Positions 4,577 through 62,064 of a DNA stretch of 64,000 bases are shown here, piece after piece. Position numbers and translations under genes: made by a program. Position 1 is the first letter of the stretch. Each line of letters opens with the position of its first letter. Origin of the DNA: Acidimicrobiales bacterium (lineage in GTDB: Bacteria; Actinomycetota; Acidimicrobiia; Acidimicrobiales; JAUJNH01); assembly GCA_030448245.1 (NCBI GenBank), contig JAUJNH010000001.1, positions 129,960 to 193,959 on the forward strand, in the 5' to 3' direction. The notes beneath the pieces are model-generated. The model was not told the DNA's origin, ran no database searches, and worked only from the letters and a program-made list of their open reading frames with translations.

Positions 4577-5335
4577 GTGCGAATCGACGTGTTCACCATC
4601 TTCCCGGACCTCGTGGACGGGTTCTGCTGGTTCAGCCTGCTCGGCAAGGCCCGTCTGAGCGGGGCCGTCGAGGTGCGCGTCCACGACCTGCGGTCCCTGG
4701 CCACCGACCCCCACCGGTCGGTCGACGACGCCCCCTACGGCGGCGGAGCCGGGATGGTCCTGCGCCCCCAGCCGGTGTTCGAGGCGGTCGAGGCGGTCCA
4801 GCCGCCCCGGCCGCTGCTGCTGCTCGGCCCCGCCGGCATCCGGCTCGACCAGCGGGTGGCCGAGCACCTCGCCTCGGGACCTGGCTTCTCCCTGCTCTGC
4901 GGGCGCTACGAGGGCGTCGATGCCCGGGTGGCCGAGCACCTGTGCGACGGCGAGCTGTCGATCGGGGACTACGTCCTCGGGGGCGGCGAGGTGGCGGCCT
5001 GCGTGGTGGTCGAGGCCGTCACCCGCCTGTTGCCCGGCGTGCTGGGCAACGCCGCCTCGGCGACCGAGGAGAGCTTCGGCGCCTCTGGCCTGCTCGAGCA
5101 CCCCCAGTACACCCGGCCCGAGTCCTACCGGGGCCACGAGGTGCCGGCGGTGCTCCGCTCGGGCGACCACGCCCGCACCGCCCGCTGGCGCCACGCCCAG
5201 GCGGTGCTGCGCACCGCCGAGCGCCGCCCCGACCTGCTCGAGGCCCGAGGAGGCCTGAACGACGAGGACCGCCGGGTCCTGGCCGAGCACGACCTGCTCG
5301 AGCGCGTCGAGCGGGCCCTCGACGGCTCCGCCTAG
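4577..5335 (+). CDS. trmD: tRNA (guanine-N1)-methyltransferase TrmD
   Basis: A 252-residue SPOUT methyltransferase making m1G37 in tRNA. Start GTG at 4577 ([11 protein letters not shown]). Family motifs in order: [31 protein letters not shown] and [15 protein letters not shown], the knotted SAM-binding region, then GVLGN. A C-terminal helical domain follows. It precedes rplS, the usual partner. The 55 bp shared with the divergent kinase gene must hold both promoters. Confidence 0.96.
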
Positions 5336-5421
5336 CGGCGTCCGAGGCTGGCCGTCCGTCCGGCTGGCGCGCTAGGTTGGCGAGCCGCCCGCTGCACTGT
5401 CGCGCCCAGGAGCCCCTCGCC

Positions 5422-5772
5422 ATGAACCCGACCGACCTCGTCGACCGCGCCAGCCTCCGGAACGACGTGCCCCCGTTCTCGCCGGGCGACACCCTGAAGG
5501 TCCACGTGCGAGTGGTCGAGGGCGCCAAGGAGCGGGTGCAGGTGTTCCAGGGCGACGTCATCGCCCGGTCTGGCTCCGGGGTGCGGGAGACCTTCACCGT
5601 CCGCAAGGTCAGCTACGGCGTGGGCGTCGAGCGCATCTTCCCGGTCCACTCGCCCGTGATCCAGAAGATCGAGGTCACCCGCCGGGGCCACGTGCGTCGG
5701 GCCAAGCTCTACTACCTGCGCGACCTGCGCGGGAAGGCGGCCAAGATCAAGGAGAAGCGGACCGCCCGCTAA
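5422..5772 (+). CDS. rplS: 50S ribosomal protein L19
   Basis: A 116-residue L19 starting at ATG 5422. Motifs: [48 protein letters not shown] and the basic tail [20 protein letters not shown]19 sits at the 30S-50S interface. A TAGGTT hexamer lies near 5372 and an AGGAG sequence at 5408. lepB follows after 6 bp. Confidence 0.97.
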
Positions 5773-5778
5773 GCCCCC

Positions 5779-6405
5779 GTGGCGTCCTCCGAGACCGAGC
5801 AGGGTCGCCGCAGCCGGGCCAGCAGGATCGCCATCGACCTCGCCGTCCTGGTGGTGGCCATCGTGCTCATCACCACCCTGCTGCGGACCCTCGTGGCCCA
5901 GGCCTTCTACATCCCGAGCCTCTCGATGGCGCCCCAGCTGGAGGTGCAGGACCGGATCGTGGTGTCCAAGCTGTCCTACCGGCTGCACGACGCCCGACGC
6001 GGCGACATCGTCGTGTTCGACGCCCCGCCGGAGCTGGAGGCGCCCAAGGAGCCCGATCCCCTGCCCACCCGGGCGGTCCGGGCCGTGCTCGAGGGCGTCA
6101 ACGTGGTGAAGCCGACCAAGACCGAGTACGTCAAGCGGGTGGTCGGGCTCCCGGGCGAAGAGGTGGTCGGCCGGGGCGGCAGCCTCTACGTCAACAACAC
6201 CCTGCTCGTCGAGCCCTACCTGCCGGCCGGGTTGCGGACCGACGACTTCGGCCCGGTCACGGTGCCGCCGAACAGGCTGTTCGTGATGGGCGACAACCGC
6301 GGCTCGTCGTTCGACAGCCGCAGGTTCGGCCCGATCGACAGCTCCAGCCTGGTGGGTCGTGTCGCGGTGAAGGTCTGGCCCCTCGGAGGCGCCTGCTGGC
6401 TGTGA
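5779..6405 (+). CDS. lepB: Signal peptidase I
   Basis: A 208-residue S26 peptidase that cleaves signal peptides outside the membrane. One N-terminal membrane segment (about residues 16-36), nucleophile Ser49 in IPSLSMAPQ, general-base Lys119 in YVKRVVGLPGE, and the C-terminal box VMGDNRGSSFDSRRFGPI. The GTG start is 6 bp from rplS, so the two are probably co-transcribed. The rplS-lepB pairing is normal for actinobacteria. Confidence 0.95.
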   Translation: MASSETEQGRRSRASRIAIDLAVLVVAIVLITTLLRTLVAQAFYIPSLSMAPQLEVQDRIVVSKLSYRLHDARRGDIVVFDAPPELEAPKEPDPLPTRAVRAVLEGVNVVKPTKTEYVKRVVGLPGEEVVGRGGSLYVNNTLLVEPYLPAGLRTDDFGPVTVPPNRLFVMGDNRGSSFDSRRFGPIDSSSLVGRVAVKVWPLGGACWL

Positions 6406-17899: not shown

Positions 17900-17939
17900 C
17901 GCCTTGGCGCGGCCGGGCGTGGTGGGGCAGCCTGTGCCG

Positions 17940-19108
17940 ATGCGCACCGTCGCCGTGGTGGGGGCCACGGGCTCCATCGGGGCTCAGACCGTCGAGGTGG
18001 TGCGGGCCGAGCCCGACCGCTACCGGGTCACGGCGCTCGGGGCCAACCGCAGCGTCGACGCCCTGGCCGCCCTGGCCCGCGAGCTGCGGCCGGCGGTGGT
18101 GGCGATCGCCGAGGCATCGCTCGAGGCCGACCTCAAGGCGGCCGTGCCGGCGGCGACCGAGGTGCGCAGCGGCCCCGGGGCCCTGGCGTCGCTGGCCGCC
18201 GAGGCGGAGGTCGTCGTCAACGGCGTGGTCGGGTTCGCCGGCCTGTCCGTCACGCTGGCTGCCCTCGAGGGCGGCCGGCGGCTGGCCCTGGCCAACAAGG
18301 AGAGCCTCATCGCCGCAGGACCGGTGGTCCAGCGAGCCCGCCGCACGCCGGGCGCCCAGATCGTCCCGGTCGACTCCGAGCACTGCGCGGTGCACCAGTG
18401 CCTCCGCAGCGGAGCAGCCGACGGCAGGGACGTGGCCGAGGTCGTGCTGACGGCCAGCGGGGCCCGTTCCGGGGCCGCTCGGCCGATGATCTCGCCCAGG
18501 TCACGGTGGACGACGCCCTGGCCCACCCCACCTGGTCGATGGGCCCGAAGATCACGGTCGACTCGTCGACCCTGATGAACAAGGGCCTCGAGGTCATCGA
18601 GGCGGTCGAGCTGTTCGGGCCGGACTTCGGCGTGGGCTACGACCAGGTCGACGTCGTGGTCCACCCTCAGTCGGTCGTGCACTCGATGGTCACCTTCAGC
18701 GACGGCGCCACCATCGCCCAGCTCTCGATGCCCGACATGCGCCTGCCGATCGGCTACGCGCTGGCCTACCCGGACCGGTTGCGCACCCCGTTCGGGGCCA
18801 TCGACTGGGGCAGCCTGCGGCGCCTCGACTTCGAGCCGCCCGACCTGGGGGCGTTCCGCTGCCTCGCCCTGGCCTTCGCCGCCGGCCGGGAGGGCGGCAC
18901 CCGCCCAGCCCAGCTGAGCGGGGCCAACGAGGTGGCGGTCGAAGGCTTCCTGGCCGGACGGATCCGCTGGGTCGACATCCCGGCCGTGGTCGAGGCCGCC
19001 CTCGAGCGCATCGAGGGAACGAATCCGGACTCCGTCGACGTTGTCCTGGAGGCCGACCGCCAGGCTCGGACAGCCGCAGCGCGCGTGATCGAGGAGCTCG
19101 AGCGATGA
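17940..19108 (+). CDS. dxr: 1-deoxy-D-xylulose 5-phosphate reductoisomerase (one frameshift)
   Basis: First committed enzyme of the non-mevalonate isoprenoid pathway. NADPH site VAVVGATGSIGAQTVEVV at the start (ATG 17940), LALANKESLIAAG, and the metal/substrate motif VDSEHCAVHQCL. Near 18459-18462 a GGGG run should be GGGGG: VVLTASG then continues in another frame as PFRGRSADDLAQVTVDDALAHPTWSMG, then KITVDSSTLMNKGLEVIEA, VVHPQSVVHSMV and SGANEVAVEGFL. The C-terminal helical domain is complete. Its stop overlaps rseP (ATGA). Confidence 0.92.
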
Positions 19109-45493: not shown

Positions 45494-45522
45494 AGTATCA
45501 CTTGCCTATTGACAAGTGACAA
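45494..45522 (-). promoter_or_regulatory. marR promoter with overlapping inverted-repeat operator
   Basis: On the minus strand TTGTCA (45522-45517), 17 bp and GATACT (45499-45494) form a good promoter whose transcript would begin at about the GTG of marR (45487), i.e. leaderless. TCACTTG and CAAGTGA (45498-45504, 45513-45519) are a perfect 7-bp inverted repeat with an 8-bp spacer lying between the two hexamers, so a bound MarR dimer would block RNA polymerase. Confidence 0.7.
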
Positions 45523-45575
45523 CCCTCGCATCGGGGAAAGGGCGGCTCGACCAGGGCGGCCGTAGGGTCGTGGGC

Positions 45576-46298
45576 GTGACGACGGTCGGGGTGCTCGGAG
45601 CTCGGGGGCGGATGGGGCGGACCGTGTGCGCGGCCGTCGAGGGCACTGACGATCTTGACCTCGGGGCCCAGGTCGACCTCGACGACGAGCTCGAGGATCT
45701 GGCGGGCAGCGACGTCGTGGTCGTCTTCACCGCGGCCGGGCAGGCCATGGACGGGCTGCGCTGGTGCGGGGCGAACGGGGTGCACGCGGTGGTCGGCACG
45801 AGCGGCTTCTCGGACGAGGAGGTGGCCGAGCTGCGGGGCCTGTTCCCCGGCCCGCCCAACCTGGCGCTGGTGGCCAACTTCGCCATCGGCGCCGTGCTGC
45901 TGATGCAGCTGGCCGAGCGCTGCGCGCCGCACTTCACCACCTGCGAGATCACCGAGCTGCACCACGACCAGAAGGTCGACGCGCCGTCGGGCACCGCCAT
46001 CGCGTCGGCCCGGCGCATCGCCGCAGCCCGGGGGGACCGCCCCTGGGCCCCAGATCCGACGACAGCCGAGGTCGTGGCCGGCGCCCGAGGCGGGGTGGTC
46101 GAGGGGATCCGCGTTCACTCCCAGCGCCAGCGGGGGATGGTGGCCAGCCAGGAGGTCGTCTTCGGCACCGAAGGCCAGTGGCTCACCCTCCGCCACGACA
46201 CCAGCAGCCGCGAGTCGTTCATGCCCGGCGTGCTCCTCGCCGTCCGCGGCATCGGCGGGCGCCCCGGCGTCACCCTCGACCTCGATCCCTTCCTCTGA
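45576..46298 (+). CDS. dapB: 4-hydroxy-tetrahydrodipicolinate reductase DapB
   Basis: A 240-residue lysine/diaminopimelate pathway reductase. NAD(P)H loop VGVLGARGRMGRTV, VVVVFTAAGQAMDG and HAVVGTSGFSDEE. The catalytic region is ITELHHDQKVDAPSGTAI, with the His pair and Lys. The GTG at 45576 is 8 bases after TAGGGT (45563-45568), probably leaderless. It works with DapA, which here lies 13 kb downstream. Confidence 0.94.
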   Translation: MTTVGVLGARGRMGRTVCAAVEGTDDLDLGAQVDLDDELEDLAGSDVVVVFTAAGQAMDGLRWCGANGVHAVVGTSGFSDEEVAELRGLFPGPPNLALVANFAIGAVLLMQLAERCAPHFTTCEITELHHDQKVDAPSGTAIASARRIAAARGDRPWAPDPTTAEVVAGARGGVVEGIRVHSQRQRGMVASQEVVFGTEGQWLTLRHDTSSRESFMPGVLLAVRGIGGRPGVTLDLDPFL

Positions 46299-46399: not shown

Positions 46400-47693
46400 T
46401 CAGGGAGCCCTGGCCGATCCACCCGGCAGCAACGTGCCGTCGCGGGCGCTGAGCACGCAGTGCACCTGCCGATCCCCGAGGCTCCAGCTGTGCTCGGTCG
46501 GGAACGGGTAGTGGACCTCGTAGTCGTCGGCCCTGGTTGGGCCGACGTTGAGGGGCAGCCGCTCGAGGCAGCCGCCGGCACCCCGTCGGTCCACCTCGTC
46601 CGCCCCCGGGAAGCGCGAGCCGGGCAGCGGGAAGCTGGTGAAGACCTCGGCCCGGTGGGGCTGGGCGCAGGCCACGAGCTTCACCGTCTTCGTCTCGCCC
46701 TCCGGCAGTGTGACCAGGCAGTCGCCGACGCGTAGGTCCTGGGCTGGCACGGTGCCGCCCGCGGTCACCGGGCCAGTGGTACCGCGATCGGCCTGGCTGA
46801 GCGCGCCGACGATGCCGACGATCGCCAGGAGCACCATCCAGCAGGCGCCCAGGACGATCCCTGCGATCGCCATGCCGCGGCCCTTCCGACGGTTCGTGCG
46901 GATCCGCCGCAGCGCCACGATCCCGAAGACGACGCCGAGGAGGCCCCCGAAGACCGGGATGATGCCGAGGACGAGAGAGGCGATCGAGAAGCCCTCCCGG
47001 CCGTTCCCGTCAGAGGGCGGCGACCCGGGACCGGGCCGCGCTCCCTGAGGCGCCGGCCCGAACGCCGGCCACGACGGAGGCGCCTGCCCCGGGGGTGGTG
47101 GCGGCGGAGCCTGCGGTGGCGCACCCCAGGCGGGCGGTGAGGGAGGTGGCGGCGGTGCTCCCCAGCCCGGCGGCGGGGGAGGAGGCGGTGCTTCCCAGCC
47201 GGGCGGCGGGGGAGGAGGCGGTGCTTCCCAGCCGGGCGGCGGGGGAGGAGCCGGTGGCGCACCCCAGGTGGGCGGTGGGGGTGGCGGCGGTGCTTCCCAG
47301 CCGGGCGGTGGGGGAGGAGGCGGTGCTTCCCAGGTGGGCGGTGGGGTGGCGGCGGTGCTCCCCAGGCGGGCGGTGGGGGAGCAGTCGGAGGAACCTCCCG
47401 GGCCGGTGGCTGCTCCGCCGTCGGCGGCCACGTCGAGGCGCCGACGCCGACTCGGTCGAGGCCGGTGGGTCCTCGGGCGGTTGCTCGTCGGCCGGCTCGT
47501 CAGGGACCGGCGCCTCGCGGGCCGGACGCCGGCGGACGAGGCTCTTGGCCGCCGCCGCCTCGGCGACAGGTGGCTCCTGGTGCGCGGCCGCATAGGCCGC
47601 AGCCACGCCCGCCGGGATCCGGCCCCGGTCGGCGACGACATAGCCGTTCGCCCGGGCCCAGGCTCGTAGGTCTGCGTTCGTCGGCTCCGCCAT
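46400..47693 (-). CDS. Membrane protein with N-terminal Lsr2-type DNA-binding domain, Pro-rich linker, DUF4190 and septum-formation-like domains (frameshifted linker)
   Basis: ATG 47693 opens AEPTNADLRAWARANGYVVA and DRGRIPAGVAAAYAAAH, the DNA-binding tail of Lsr2, including the RGR that enters the minor groove of AT-rich DNA. A charged then Pro/Gly/Trp-rich linker follows with repeats of W(E/G)APPPPPPP. DUF4190 comes next (SIASLVLGIIPVFGGLLGVV, then GRGMAIAGIVLGACW), giving two membrane segments. Last is an outer domain DLRVGDCLVTLPEGETKTV with paired cysteines, like septum-formation-type PF13845. The linker changes frame near 47450 and 47346 in C-runs. This would tether an AT-DNA binder to the membrane. 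Confidence 0.75.
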
Positions 47694-47814: not shown

Positions 47815-48585
47815 TCAGCGGCGGTCGTCGACCACCGAACCACCTTCGGCCGGGCCGTCGGTCCCGCCCTCTCCGGCCCCACGGCGCGGACCGGCCTCGG
47901 AGGCGTCGATCTCGTGCTTCAGCTCGGCGAGCGATCCGAGGTCGCCCGGCCGCTGACCCTGCTTGTTCTTGAGGGCCGACTGGAGGATGAACAGCCCGAT
48001 CGAGACGGCGAGAATGGGCCAGCGGTAGCGGTCGAGGAAGCCGGTGACCGCCGAGATGGGCGCGATGAAGGCCTTGCCGAACAGGCGGGCCAGGTACAGC
48101 CGGCCGATCGTGCCGATGGCGTTGAGCGTGAGGAAGACCGGGACCCGCATGCCGCTGGCCCCGGCCAGGAGGCAGACCGGGTTGTTCGGGGCGATCAGCA
48201 CGATCGGGTATCGCGCCTTTTGGAAGGCCTTCTCGAACCAGATGATCGAGGCGGCGCCGTCGCCCATCTTCCGCTCGATCCACCGGAGCGCAGCGTCGCC
48301 GTAGAACAGCCCGAGGAGGTAGAAGAGCGGGTCGGCCAGCAGCAGCCTGACGAACCCGATGCCGTAGTACGTCATCGCGTCGAGCTGGTTGGTGACCCCC
48401 ACCAGGACCCGGTTGGTCGAGTTGAGGCAGAGGAGCAGCGCCGGGCGGCGCTCGACCAGCGTGGCGTAGAAGATGTTCCCGACGTTCGACGCCACCACCA
48501 GGATGCCGACGCCGGTGAGGAGCGCAGCCAGGACCCACCGGGGTGGGCGGGCCCGCTGGGGGGGCGCGGGCGGTGGCTCGTGCAT
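47815..48585 (-). CDS. DedA/VTT-like polytopic membrane protein
   Basis: About 256 residues from ATG 48585. Four to five hydrophobic segments (WVLAALLTGVGILVVASNVG; VRLLLADPLFYLLGLFYG; RWPILAVSIGLFILQSAL). An amphipathic re-entrant-type stretch, IVLIAPNNPVCLLAGASGMR followed by VPVFLTLNAIGTIGRLYLA, resembles the DedA/VTT core. The tail is acidic and Gly-rich. DedA relatives are lipid scramblases or flippases; assignment here is by pattern only. It is divergent from fadD. Confidence 0.62.
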   Translation of the reverse strand: MHEPPPAPPQRARPPRWVLAALLTGVGILVVASNVGNIFYATLVERRPALLLCLNSTNRVLVGVTNQLDAMTYYGIGFVRLLLADPLFYLLGLFYGDAALRWIERKMGDGAASIIWFEKAFQKARYPIVLIAPNNPVCLLAGASGMRVPVFLTLNAIGTIGRLYLARLFGKAFIAPISAVTGFLDRYRWPILAVSIGLFILQSALKNKQGQRPGDLGSLAELKHEIDASEAGPRRGAGEGGTDGPAEGGSVVDDRR

Positions 48586-48646
48586 CGGCTCAGCCACCAC
48601 GGTGACGGTAGCGTGCCGCTGGGGACCATCGGCCAGGGGGGAAGCC

Positions 48647-50275
48647 ATGAAGGGCCTGATGCAGGACACGCCGCTGACGCTGTCGATGATCTTCCGGCGA
48701 GCCGAGCAGCTGTTCCCCGACAAGCGCATCGTCACCGCCGAGGTGGGCGGGGCCAAGACCCGCACCACCTATGCCCAGTGGTGCGAGCGCACCCGCCGGC
48801 TGGGCGGCGTCCTCGACGCCCTCGGCATCTCGGCCGACGGCAGAGTCGCCACCTTCGGCTGGAACACCGCCCGCCACCTCGAGCTCTACTACGCCGCGCC
48901 CTGCAGCGGCCGGGTGCTGCACACGCTGAACATCCGGCTGTTCCCCGACCAGCTCACCTACATCGCCAACCACGCCGAGGACGAGGTGGTCTTCGTCGAC
49001 AAGTCGCTGCTGCCGCTGTACCAGAAGGTGTCCGGCACCTTCACCACGGTGCGCCACACGGTGGTGATCGACGACGGTGCCCCGGGCGAGCTCCCTGACG
49101 GCTGGCTGGACTACGAGCGGCTGCTGGAAGAGGCGGGGACGCCCGTCGACCTCGAGGTCGTCGACGAGGGCAGCGCCGCCGCCATGTGCTACACGAGCGG
49201 CACCACGGGCCACCCCAAGGGCGTGGTGTACAGCCACCGGTCGACCGTGCTCCACGCCCTCGGGACGATGCTGGCCGACTCGGTCGGCATCTCCGAGGCC
49301 GACGTCATCCTCCCGGTGGTACCGATGTTCCACGCCAACGCCTGGGGCATCGGCCAGGCCGGCGTGTTCGCCGGCAGCGACTTCGTTCTGCCCGGCCCGA
49401 ACATGACGCCGGCGGCGCTGGTCGACCTGATGGAGCAGGAGCGGGTGACCCTGGCCGCCGGGGTTCCCACCATCTGGATGGGGGTGCTGCCGCTGCTCGA
49501 GGGCCGGGATCTCAGCTCGCTGACCAGGGTGGTGGCCGGCGGCTCGGCCGTGCCCAAGGCGCTGTCGGAGGGCTTCCGCCGGGCCATCGGCCTGCCGATC
49601 CAGCAGGCCTGGGGGATGACCGAGACCAGCCCGGTGGCCTCGACCGGCCGGTTGCGCAGCTCGGTGACCGGGCTGTCCGACGACGAGCTGGCCGACATCC
49701 GGGCCACCCAGGGCATGCCCATGGCGCTGGTCGACGCCCGGGTCGTCGAGCCCGACACCACCAACGTGCTGCCGTGGGACGGCACCACCTCGGGCGAGCT
49801 CCAGGTGCGGGGCCCGTGGATCGCCAGCGCCTACTACGACGACCCCCGCTCACCCGAGTCGTTCACCGCCGACGGGTGGCTGAAGACGGGTGACGTCGCC
49901 ACCATCCGGCCCGACGGCTACATCCACCTGGTCGACCGCACCAAGGACCTCGTCAAGTCCGGCGGCGAGTGGATCAGCTCGGTCGATGTCGAGAACGAGC
50001 TGATGGCCCACCCCAAGGTCAAGGAGGCCGCGGTGATCGGCGTCGCTCATCCGAAGTGGGTCGAGCGGCCGCTGGCGTGCGTTGTCGTGCGGGATGGCGA
50101 GACGCTCACCAAGGACGAGGTGCTCGAGTTCCTGGCCCCGCGGGTGGCCCGGTGGTGGCTGCCCGACGACGTGGTCTTCATCGAGGAGGTCCCCAAGACC
50201 TCGGTGGGGAAGTTCTCGAAGAAGACGCTGCGCGACCGCTTCGCCGGCCACGTCCTCCCCGACGTGACGTCCTGA
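48647..50275 (+). CDS. Acyl-CoA synthetase (FadD-like, medium/long chain)
   Basis: A 542-residue adenylate-forming enzyme. A3 loop [19 protein letters not shown]5 [12 protein letters not shown]7/A8 [20 protein letters not shown] and [15 protein letters not shown], and catalytic Lys in [17 protein letters not shown]. The [11 protein letters not shown] hinge and overall length fit fatty acyl-CoA ligases. The gene stands near a tetR pair and a diiron protein that may also act on lipids, but has its own promoter region. Confidence 0.9.
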
Positions 50276-60403: not shown

Positions 60404-62064
60404 GTGAGCGCAGCGGTCCGGGTCACGTTCCTGGGGGGTCTGGGGGAGATCGGCCGCAACTGCGCCGCCGTCGAGGTCGAGGGCCGGTTGCTGCTCCTCG
60501 ACTGCGGCCTCATGTTCCCGACGACCGAGATGCCGGGCGTCGACCTGGTGCTGCCCGACTTCTCGTGGCTGCTGAAGAACCGTGACCGGATCGAGGGCGC
60601 CGTGCTCACCCACGGCCACGAGGACCACGTCGGCGCCCTGCAGTTCCTGCTGCGCGAGCTGTCGTTCCCGCTCTTCGGCTCGGCGCTGACGCTGGGGCTG
60701 GCCCGGGGCCGGATCGAGGAGGCCGGGCTGCTCGGCCGCACGAAGCTGGTGCCGGTGGTCGACGGCGAGCGCCGCCGGATCGGCCCGTTCGACGTCGAGT
60801 TCATCCCGGTCACCCACTCGGTGCCCCACGGCTTCGCCACCTGCTTCCGCACCCCCAGGGCAACATCCTCCACTCCGGCGACTTCAAGATCGACCTGAAC
60901 CCGGTCGACGGGCGGCGCACCGGGCTGGCCCGCATCGGCGCCATCGCCGACGGCGAGGGCATCCGGCTGCTGCTGAGCGACTCGACCAACGCCGAGGAGC
61001 CGGGCCACACCACCTCGGAGTCCGAGGTGGGCCGGGTGCTGGCCGACCTGATCCGCAAGGCCGACGGCAAGCGCGTGGTGCTGGCCTGCTTCGCCAGTCA
61101 CATCCACCGCATCCAGCAGGTCATCGACGCCGCCGTCTCCCAGGGTCGCACGGTGGCCACGCTGGGCCGGTCGATGAACCGCAACGTGCGACTGGCTCGC
61201 GAGCTGGGCGTGCTGCACTACGAGGACCGCTCGCTGATCGACATCGAGGATGCCGGGAAGGTGCCCCGCGAGAAGCTGCTCATCGTCAGCACCGGCAGCC
61301 AGGGCGAGCCCATGAGCGCCCTGTCCCTGATGGCGGCCGGTGAGAACCGGTGGCTGACGGTGGGGGAGGGCGACCTGGTGATCCTGTCCAGCCACGCCAT
61401 CCCCGGCAACGAGACCAGCGTCGGCAAGGTCATCGACGGCCTCACCCGCCGGGGCTGCGAGGTCGTCCACTCGGGCCTGGCCGACGTCCACGTCTCCGGC
61501 CACGCCATGCAGGGCGAGCTGAAGACCCTGCTGTCGGTGGCCAAGCCCGAGTACTTCATCCCCGTGCACGGCGAGTTCCGCCACCTTCGCCACCACGCTG
61601 ACCTGGCCACCGGCATGGGCGTCGAGGCCGACAAGGTGCTGCTGTGCGAGGACGGCGACGTGGTCCGCCTCGACGAGCAGACCGTCGACTTCGACGGCGA
61701 GGTGCCGGCCGGCTACCTGTACGTCGACGGCATCGTCGGCGACGTCGGCCACGGCGTGCTGCGGGACCGGCGGGTCCTGTCGGAGGAAGGCGTCGTCGTG
61801 GTGGTCGTGACGGTGGACGTCAAGACGGGGGAGGTGGTGAGCGGCCCGGAGATCATCACCCGGGGCTGGGTCCACGCCCCGGACGCCGAGCCCCTCCTCG
61901 ACGAGGCTCGGCAGGTGGTGCGGGGGGCGCTGGAGAAGCTCGACCACCGGGGCGGAGTCGAGCTCGACCAGGTCCAGCGGGCGGCCCGACAGGCGCTGGG
62001 CAAGTTCGTCAACGAGCGCACCAGGCGGCGGCCGATGATCGTGCCCGTCGTCATGGAGGTCTGA
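60404..62064 (+). CDS. rnj: Ribonuclease J (one frameshift)
   Basis: A metallo-beta-lactamase/beta-CASP RNase with both endo- and 5' exo-activity in relatives. GTG 60404 (VSAAVRVTFLGGLGEIGRN), metal motif HGHEDH near residues 70-75 and VTHSVPHGFATCFRTP. One C is missing near 60855 (ACCCC-AGG): QGNILHSGDFKIDLNP follows in another frame. Next come LLLSDSTNAEEPGHT, VSTGSQGEPMSALSLM, IPGNETSVGKVIDGLTRRG and VSGHAMQGELKTLL. It ends MIVPVVMEV. dapA-rnj is the normal actinobacterial pair. Confidence 0.92.

Follow-up and report, generated by a model that had tools for sequence, protein, structure and literature searches.

A possible membrane-anchored Lsr2-type DNA-binding protein with a Septum_form domain in an Acidimicrobiales bacterium

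What attaches the bacterial nucleoid to the membrane has long been asked, and few protein links between the two are known. A locus in the genome of an Acidimicrobiales bacterium (3.26 Mb in 22 contigs) raises the question of whether the DNA-binding domain of Lsr2 has been joined to a membrane protein in a single gene and, if so, whether the product holds DNA at the membrane. The locus lies in a stretch of 64,000 nucleotides that was analyzed as a whole (hereafter the window). The gene, which runs on the minus strand from an ATG at 47693 to a stop codon at 46400-46402 (46400..47693), consists of an Lsr2-type head, an acidic linker, a Pro/Trp array, a DUF4190 domain and a Septum_form domain, with two frame changes in the linker. 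Our preferred reading, held with about even confidence, is that a single gene here encodes a membrane-anchored DNA-binding protein, most likely one that holds DNA or the nucleoid near the membrane. A silencer-type head on a membrane protein, together with the other basic or helical heads found in relatives, provides a concrete family for testing. Should the broken single copy be all there is, the gene would be a curiosity; should the wider pattern be true, it would belong to a modular tether system that extends beyond the known case of Rv3852.

Domain organization of the locus

The identity and order of the domains, their conserved residues and the two frame changes of the assembly could be read directly. 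On the evidence of profile and sequence comparison, the N-terminal 37 residues are a genuine Lsr2 DNA-binding domain. The translation from the ATG at 47,693 opens with MAEPTNADLRAWARANGYVVADRGRIPAGVAAAYAAAHQEPPV, and the PF23359 (Lsr2_DNA-bd) profile matched residues 4-37 (47583..47684, minus strand) with 49.1 bits (E = 1.7e-12) when the whole genome was searched and with 48.1 bits (E = 6.9e-13) by hmmscan, the curated cut-off being 26.9 bits. The solved structures closest to the head by sequence were those of Lsr2 (2kng, 6qkp and 6qkq), its sole solved relatives. The same three structures were the top fold matches of the head model, with probabilities of 0.93-0.96 but E-values of 0.3-0.5 for this very small domain. 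The modelled helices span residues 6-15 and 28-38, and the RGR minor-groove motif (residues 23-25; 47619..47627, minus strand) is located in the loop between them. In alignment A2, of Lsr2 and its fusion relatives, the residues R10, W12, A13 and R23-G24-R25 do not vary, and all of them are kept in the head. The RGR motif of Lsr2 and its preference for AT-rich DNA have been described (PMC3374832).

An earlier note on this DNA, made from the letters alone, had proposed an N-terminal Lsr2-type module with an RGR hook, and had named the first 40 residues as the place where an Lsr2 match should be sought; the PF23359 match lies there and bears the proposal out. The model that it had named, PF11774, was the wrong one, giving no match in the fusion gene in the whole-genome profile search. 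In this genome PF11774 matched only the two true Lsr2 genes (contigs C9 and C21), and since these matches sit N-terminal to PF23359 in both genes, PF11774 is the dimerization domain in the Pfam copy used. The head thus belongs to the same DNA-binding family as Lsr2, RGR loop included. However, Lsr2 is soluble, with an N-terminal dimerization domain and a C-terminal DNA-binding domain, whereas here the DNA-binding domain is N-terminal, alone and joined to membrane segments.

The C-terminal half, which ends at the stop codon at 46,400-46,402, is in a different frame from the head. The DNA-binding part and the membrane segment are both present at the locus, and the frame between them is broken in the assembly. 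The DUF4190 domain (PF13828; 46820..46987, minus strand) scored 57.6 bits by hmmscan (cut-off 35), and the Septum_form domain (PF13845; 46457..46732, minus strand), presumed to be extracytoplasmic, scored 33.0 bits (cut-off 25), in agreement with what had been read from the letters. Two hydrophobic segments were recognized from the model and from hydropathy. Segment 1 (46901..46984, minus strand; model helix 12-39) is a helix with a central Pro-x-x-Gly-Gly, and segment 2 (46808..46879, minus strand; model helix 47-70) is a transmembrane helix; an Arg/Lys-rich loop lies between them. An alignment of twenty sequences (A1) shows the four cysteines of the Septum_form domain to be conserved, and the domain was modelled with pLDDT mostly about 90 or higher. 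A PDB fold search with the model of the C-terminal half returned no match, and an NCBIfam search of the fusion gene gave nothing useful.

Septum_form and Lsr2 domains in other genomes

We compared the locus with genomes of the same order, all of them from other families and genera. Septum_form was present in 191 of 397 such genomes, where its partners included lipoprotein-like proteins, DUF2510-like segments, small helical domains and a Ser/Thr kinase (L136). In three proteins (L016, L146 and L148), the domain N-terminal to Septum_form weakly resembles the IF-2 N-terminal domain (phmmer, 8-11 bits). In one family (f30), Septum_form is located behind K/A/P-rich basic tails (L025, L028, L152 and L244), and the measured stretches of three of these tails have net charges of +27 (L025), +26 (L028) and +15 (L152). 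The closest relative in architecture, L257, shares with the gene a Pro-rich N-terminal region with Pro/Trp repeats, a DUF4190-type membrane pair and a four-cysteine Septum_form domain, but does not have the DNA-binding head. None of the other DUF4190/Septum_form proteins found carries an Lsr2 head either; their heads are DUF2510-like, IF2_N-like, basic K/A tails or a kinase. The occurrence of Septum_form with such differing N-terminal modules indicates that cytoplasmic heads are exchanged on a shared outside domain. A bolder proposal, which we consider improbable, is that the Septum_form membrane proteins of the order are a shared chassis with interchangeable nucleic-acid-binding heads (Lsr2, H1-like tails and IF2_N-like domains) and form a class of chromosome-membrane tethers, through which the nucleoid would be connected with an envelope domain.

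Several further Septum_form loci were observed. The N-terminal domains of L245, L250 and L251 are also weakly IF-2 N-terminal-like, and the tails of the four f30 proteins are histone-H1-like and are followed by very acidic linkers. At L073, on contig C21 of the same genome as the fusion gene, a one-pass Septum_form gene (5017-5529, plus strand) precedes an Lsr2 gene (5949-6383, plus strand) by about 0.4 kb.

The Lsr2 DNA-binding domain was searched for with PF23359 in about 1,000 different actinobacterial genomes, taken as four sets with some overlap (118, 395, 397 and 397 genomes). The larger searches scored part of each genome's candidates; nearly all of the long-frame hits and some of the short-frame ones were read in translation, and a small model was run over all fetched loci. 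Among the hits read in these partly scored genomes, with short frames read in part, there was no second Lsr2-domain membrane protein, and no intact orthologue of the fusion was found among the partly scored candidates of the same genomes. Contig scans with the C-terminal half and with the N-terminal piece found no relative, the single-sequence patterns being too narrow, and a plasmid search with the head returned only genes annotated as Lsr2. Elsewhere, PF23359 was found in Lsr2 or Lsr2-like proteins, or C-terminally on ERCC4-like nucleases, helicases, BRCT proteins, a Dam-like methylase and a transposase-like protein, names that were read by eye from the sequences. These fusions resemble the present gene in using the domain as a portable DNA-binding module, but no membrane protein is among those found, and the domain is nearly always C-terminal in them, the exceptions being L197 and L119.

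Role at the membrane and topology

In the mechanism that we propose, the Lsr2-type head would grip the minor groove of AT-rich DNA through its RGR loop, as predicted from its sequence; a long flexible linker, acidic and then Pro/Trp-rich, would connect the head to the membrane anchor; and the cysteine-containing Septum_form domain would lie on the outer face. DNA or the nucleoid would be kept near the membrane by many weak single heads acting jointly, a feature proposed because the dimerization domain of Lsr2 is absent. We infer that in the organism itself the gene is unbroken, and that its product has a cytoplasmic head that binds DNA.

Three lines of evidence support such a role. The Lsr2 domain is used elsewhere as a module on enzymes that act on DNA, including N-terminally on an HsdM-like methylase; the Septum_form proteins of relatives bear strongly basic K/A/P-rich tails; and a protein of Mycobacterium tuberculosis, Rv3852, works in this way (PMC8233713). 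Rv3852 ('H-NS') is a DNA-binding, nucleoid-associated protein fixed to the membrane by a hydrophobic C-terminal transmembrane helix, and the nucleoid condenses when this anchor is missing (PMC8233713). With this precedent, the tether would not be a new type, as the earlier note had suggested it would be. Rv3852 nevertheless differs from the present protein in having no Septum_form domain and in being restricted to M. tuberculosis and close relatives, and its DNA-binding part is different from the Lsr2-type head. Counting against a tether are the failure to find an intact orthologue and the two breaks in the gene as assembled, the absence of a DNA-binding head from L257, the weak binding to be expected of a lone Lsr2 domain without dimerization, and the topology, since a plain two-pass arrangement with the C-terminal domain outside puts the head outside as well. 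The earlier note's proposal of a DNA-membrane tether is plausible, and its reading of the domains was right, but it had left the topology out of account and the head could face outside.

The main functional rival, which we regard as rather unlikely, is a membrane-bound one-component regulator like CadC/ToxR, in which Septum_form would sense the outside and the Lsr2 head would control particular AT-rich promoters. Membrane-anchored DNA-binding regulators are a well-known class, and the swapping of Septum_form among cytoplasmic modules such as the Ser/Thr kinase and the small helical domains is receiver-like. However, Lsr2-type domains read the AT-rich minor groove and not a specific site (PMC3374832), and no regulated neighbor is evident at the locus: dapB (45,516-46,298) is convergent on one side, and a membrane gene with a weak VTT match (47,815-48,768) is co-directional on the other.

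The topology raises a further alternative, namely that both ends of the protein are outside and that the head is extracellular or does not bind DNA, the Lsr2 domain being otherwise used or useless. The Arg/Lys-rich loop flanked by the two hydrophobic segments would fit this arrangement, and the relatives with lipoprotein-like N-termini suggest that the Septum_form side is outside. We nevertheless judge it unlikely. L025 and L028 have both ends in common but two hydrophobic segments and one, respectively, and because their strongly positive tails should remain cytoplasmic, a head on the inside is favored. Given the Pro/Gly break at its center, segment 1 may form a re-entrant hairpin without crossing the membrane, and no evident signal peptide precedes the head.

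The preferred reading, a protein that holds DNA near the membrane, had also been linked to the nucleoid near the septum, a suggestion that came purely from the family name Septum_form and could not be upheld, the domain occurring also on lipoprotein-like, kinase, DUF2510-like and other proteins. Rv3835 is presumably the mycobacterial Septum_form protein. Rv3835 and Cg3203 have been listed as possible ZipA orthologues, and their part in cell division 'remains to be validated' (PMC3989709). A septal location is not an absurd idea, since the soluble nucleoid protein NapM moves to the septum under stress (PMC13340245).

Linker, frame changes and gene order

The earlier note had described the linker as frame-broken in the assembly, and we found two changes in it. 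Downstream of the head, an Ala/Pro/Glu-rich acidic linker (47466..47582, minus strand; net charge -5) continues in the frame of the DNA-binding domain, as seen from translation and codon preference. The first frame change could be placed approximately at 47420..47465 (minus strand) from translation, codon preference and repeat analysis. It is followed by a Pro/Trp tandem array (47100..47388, minus strand) with units W-x-A-P-P-P-P-P-P-P-x of 33 or 36 nt. The second frame change, located by the repeat lengths, is contained in a repeat unit of 32 nt (47333..47364, minus strand), and each of the six units after it is again 33 or 36 nt long.

Codon preference follows the DNA-binding frame as far as about 47,450 and, from about 47,040 onward, the membrane frame; within the repeats it leans toward the first (DNA-binding) frame. 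This lean is not to be relied on, since the copies differ chiefly at third codon positions of the Pro/Trp frame: 13 of the 19 pairwise differences among four equal units fall there. This pattern of variation itself supports one gene, as does the DNA-binding frame keeping its codon preference up to the linker. In addition, the first Pro/Trp unit lies in frame 0, where no start codon occurs from the preceding stop at 47,502 as far as the array. This unit can therefore be reached only by reading in from upstream, which also supports one gene.

Two other genes in the window, those for RNase J (60,404-62,064, plus strand) and DXR (17,919-19,108, plus strand), are broken too: in each, two frames between them cover complementary stretches of a single family model. 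Both are conserved core genes and so are unlikely to have decayed. As each is split by a single change, assembly (consensus) error is the likeliest cause of the frame changes, and the breaks in the fusion gene are probably sequencing errors. The alternative that the changes are real and that the full protein is no longer made, as in a decayed gene, would agree with two frame changes within a single gene and with the absence of an intact orthologue from the searches of about 1,000 actinobacterial genomes, but we hold it to be doubtful: RNase J and DXR are broken likewise in the same window, pointing to consensus errors, and the domains on either side of the breaks retain all conserved residues.

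A codon model for frame changes was also tried and was rejected because it over-calls, with 20 of 56 genes flagged; one gene that it flagged as broken turned out to be three normal neighbors, RimP, NusA and RnpM. For this reason, only RNase J and DXR were relied on as evidence of assembly error.

That two separate genes, one for a small Lsr2-domain protein and one for a DUF4190/Septum_form protein, only seem fused is very unlikely: the halves do occupy different frames, the first frame is open for about 227 codons and could terminate alone at 47,010, a GTG at 47,431 is a possible start of the second half and the repeats lean by codon preference to the first frame. That frame, however, has no stop ahead of the repeats, the array starts in a third frame that offers no start codon at that place, the codon preference of the repeats is unreliable for the reason given above, and no pair of such genes, which the earlier note would have taken as contrary evidence, was found at the locus among the relatives compared.

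Other arrangements of the Lsr2 DNA-binding domain were observed during the searches. On the HsdM-like type I methylase of L197 (1313-2341, plus strand) the domain is N-terminal, and the reading frame changes before the expected end; in L119 the domain is internal. Two or three tandem Lsr2-type DNA-binding domains are present per protein in L159, L167 and L209. In Actinomycetota, a C-terminal Lsr2 DNA-binding domain is present on many ERCC4-like nucleases (L051, L054-L057, L106, L113 and others), and a search of one paper collection for Lsr2 together with ERCC4 found nothing.

Gene order was compared around dapB. In 29 relatives, the flanks of dapB (about 1.5 kb per side) contained no Septum_form or Lsr2-domain gene adjoining it. 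In one genome of the order (G009, locus L280), a VTT-like gene and dapB are directly adjacent and convergent, with 18 nt between them. Seen against these two results, the fusion gene has the look of a lineage-specific insertion.
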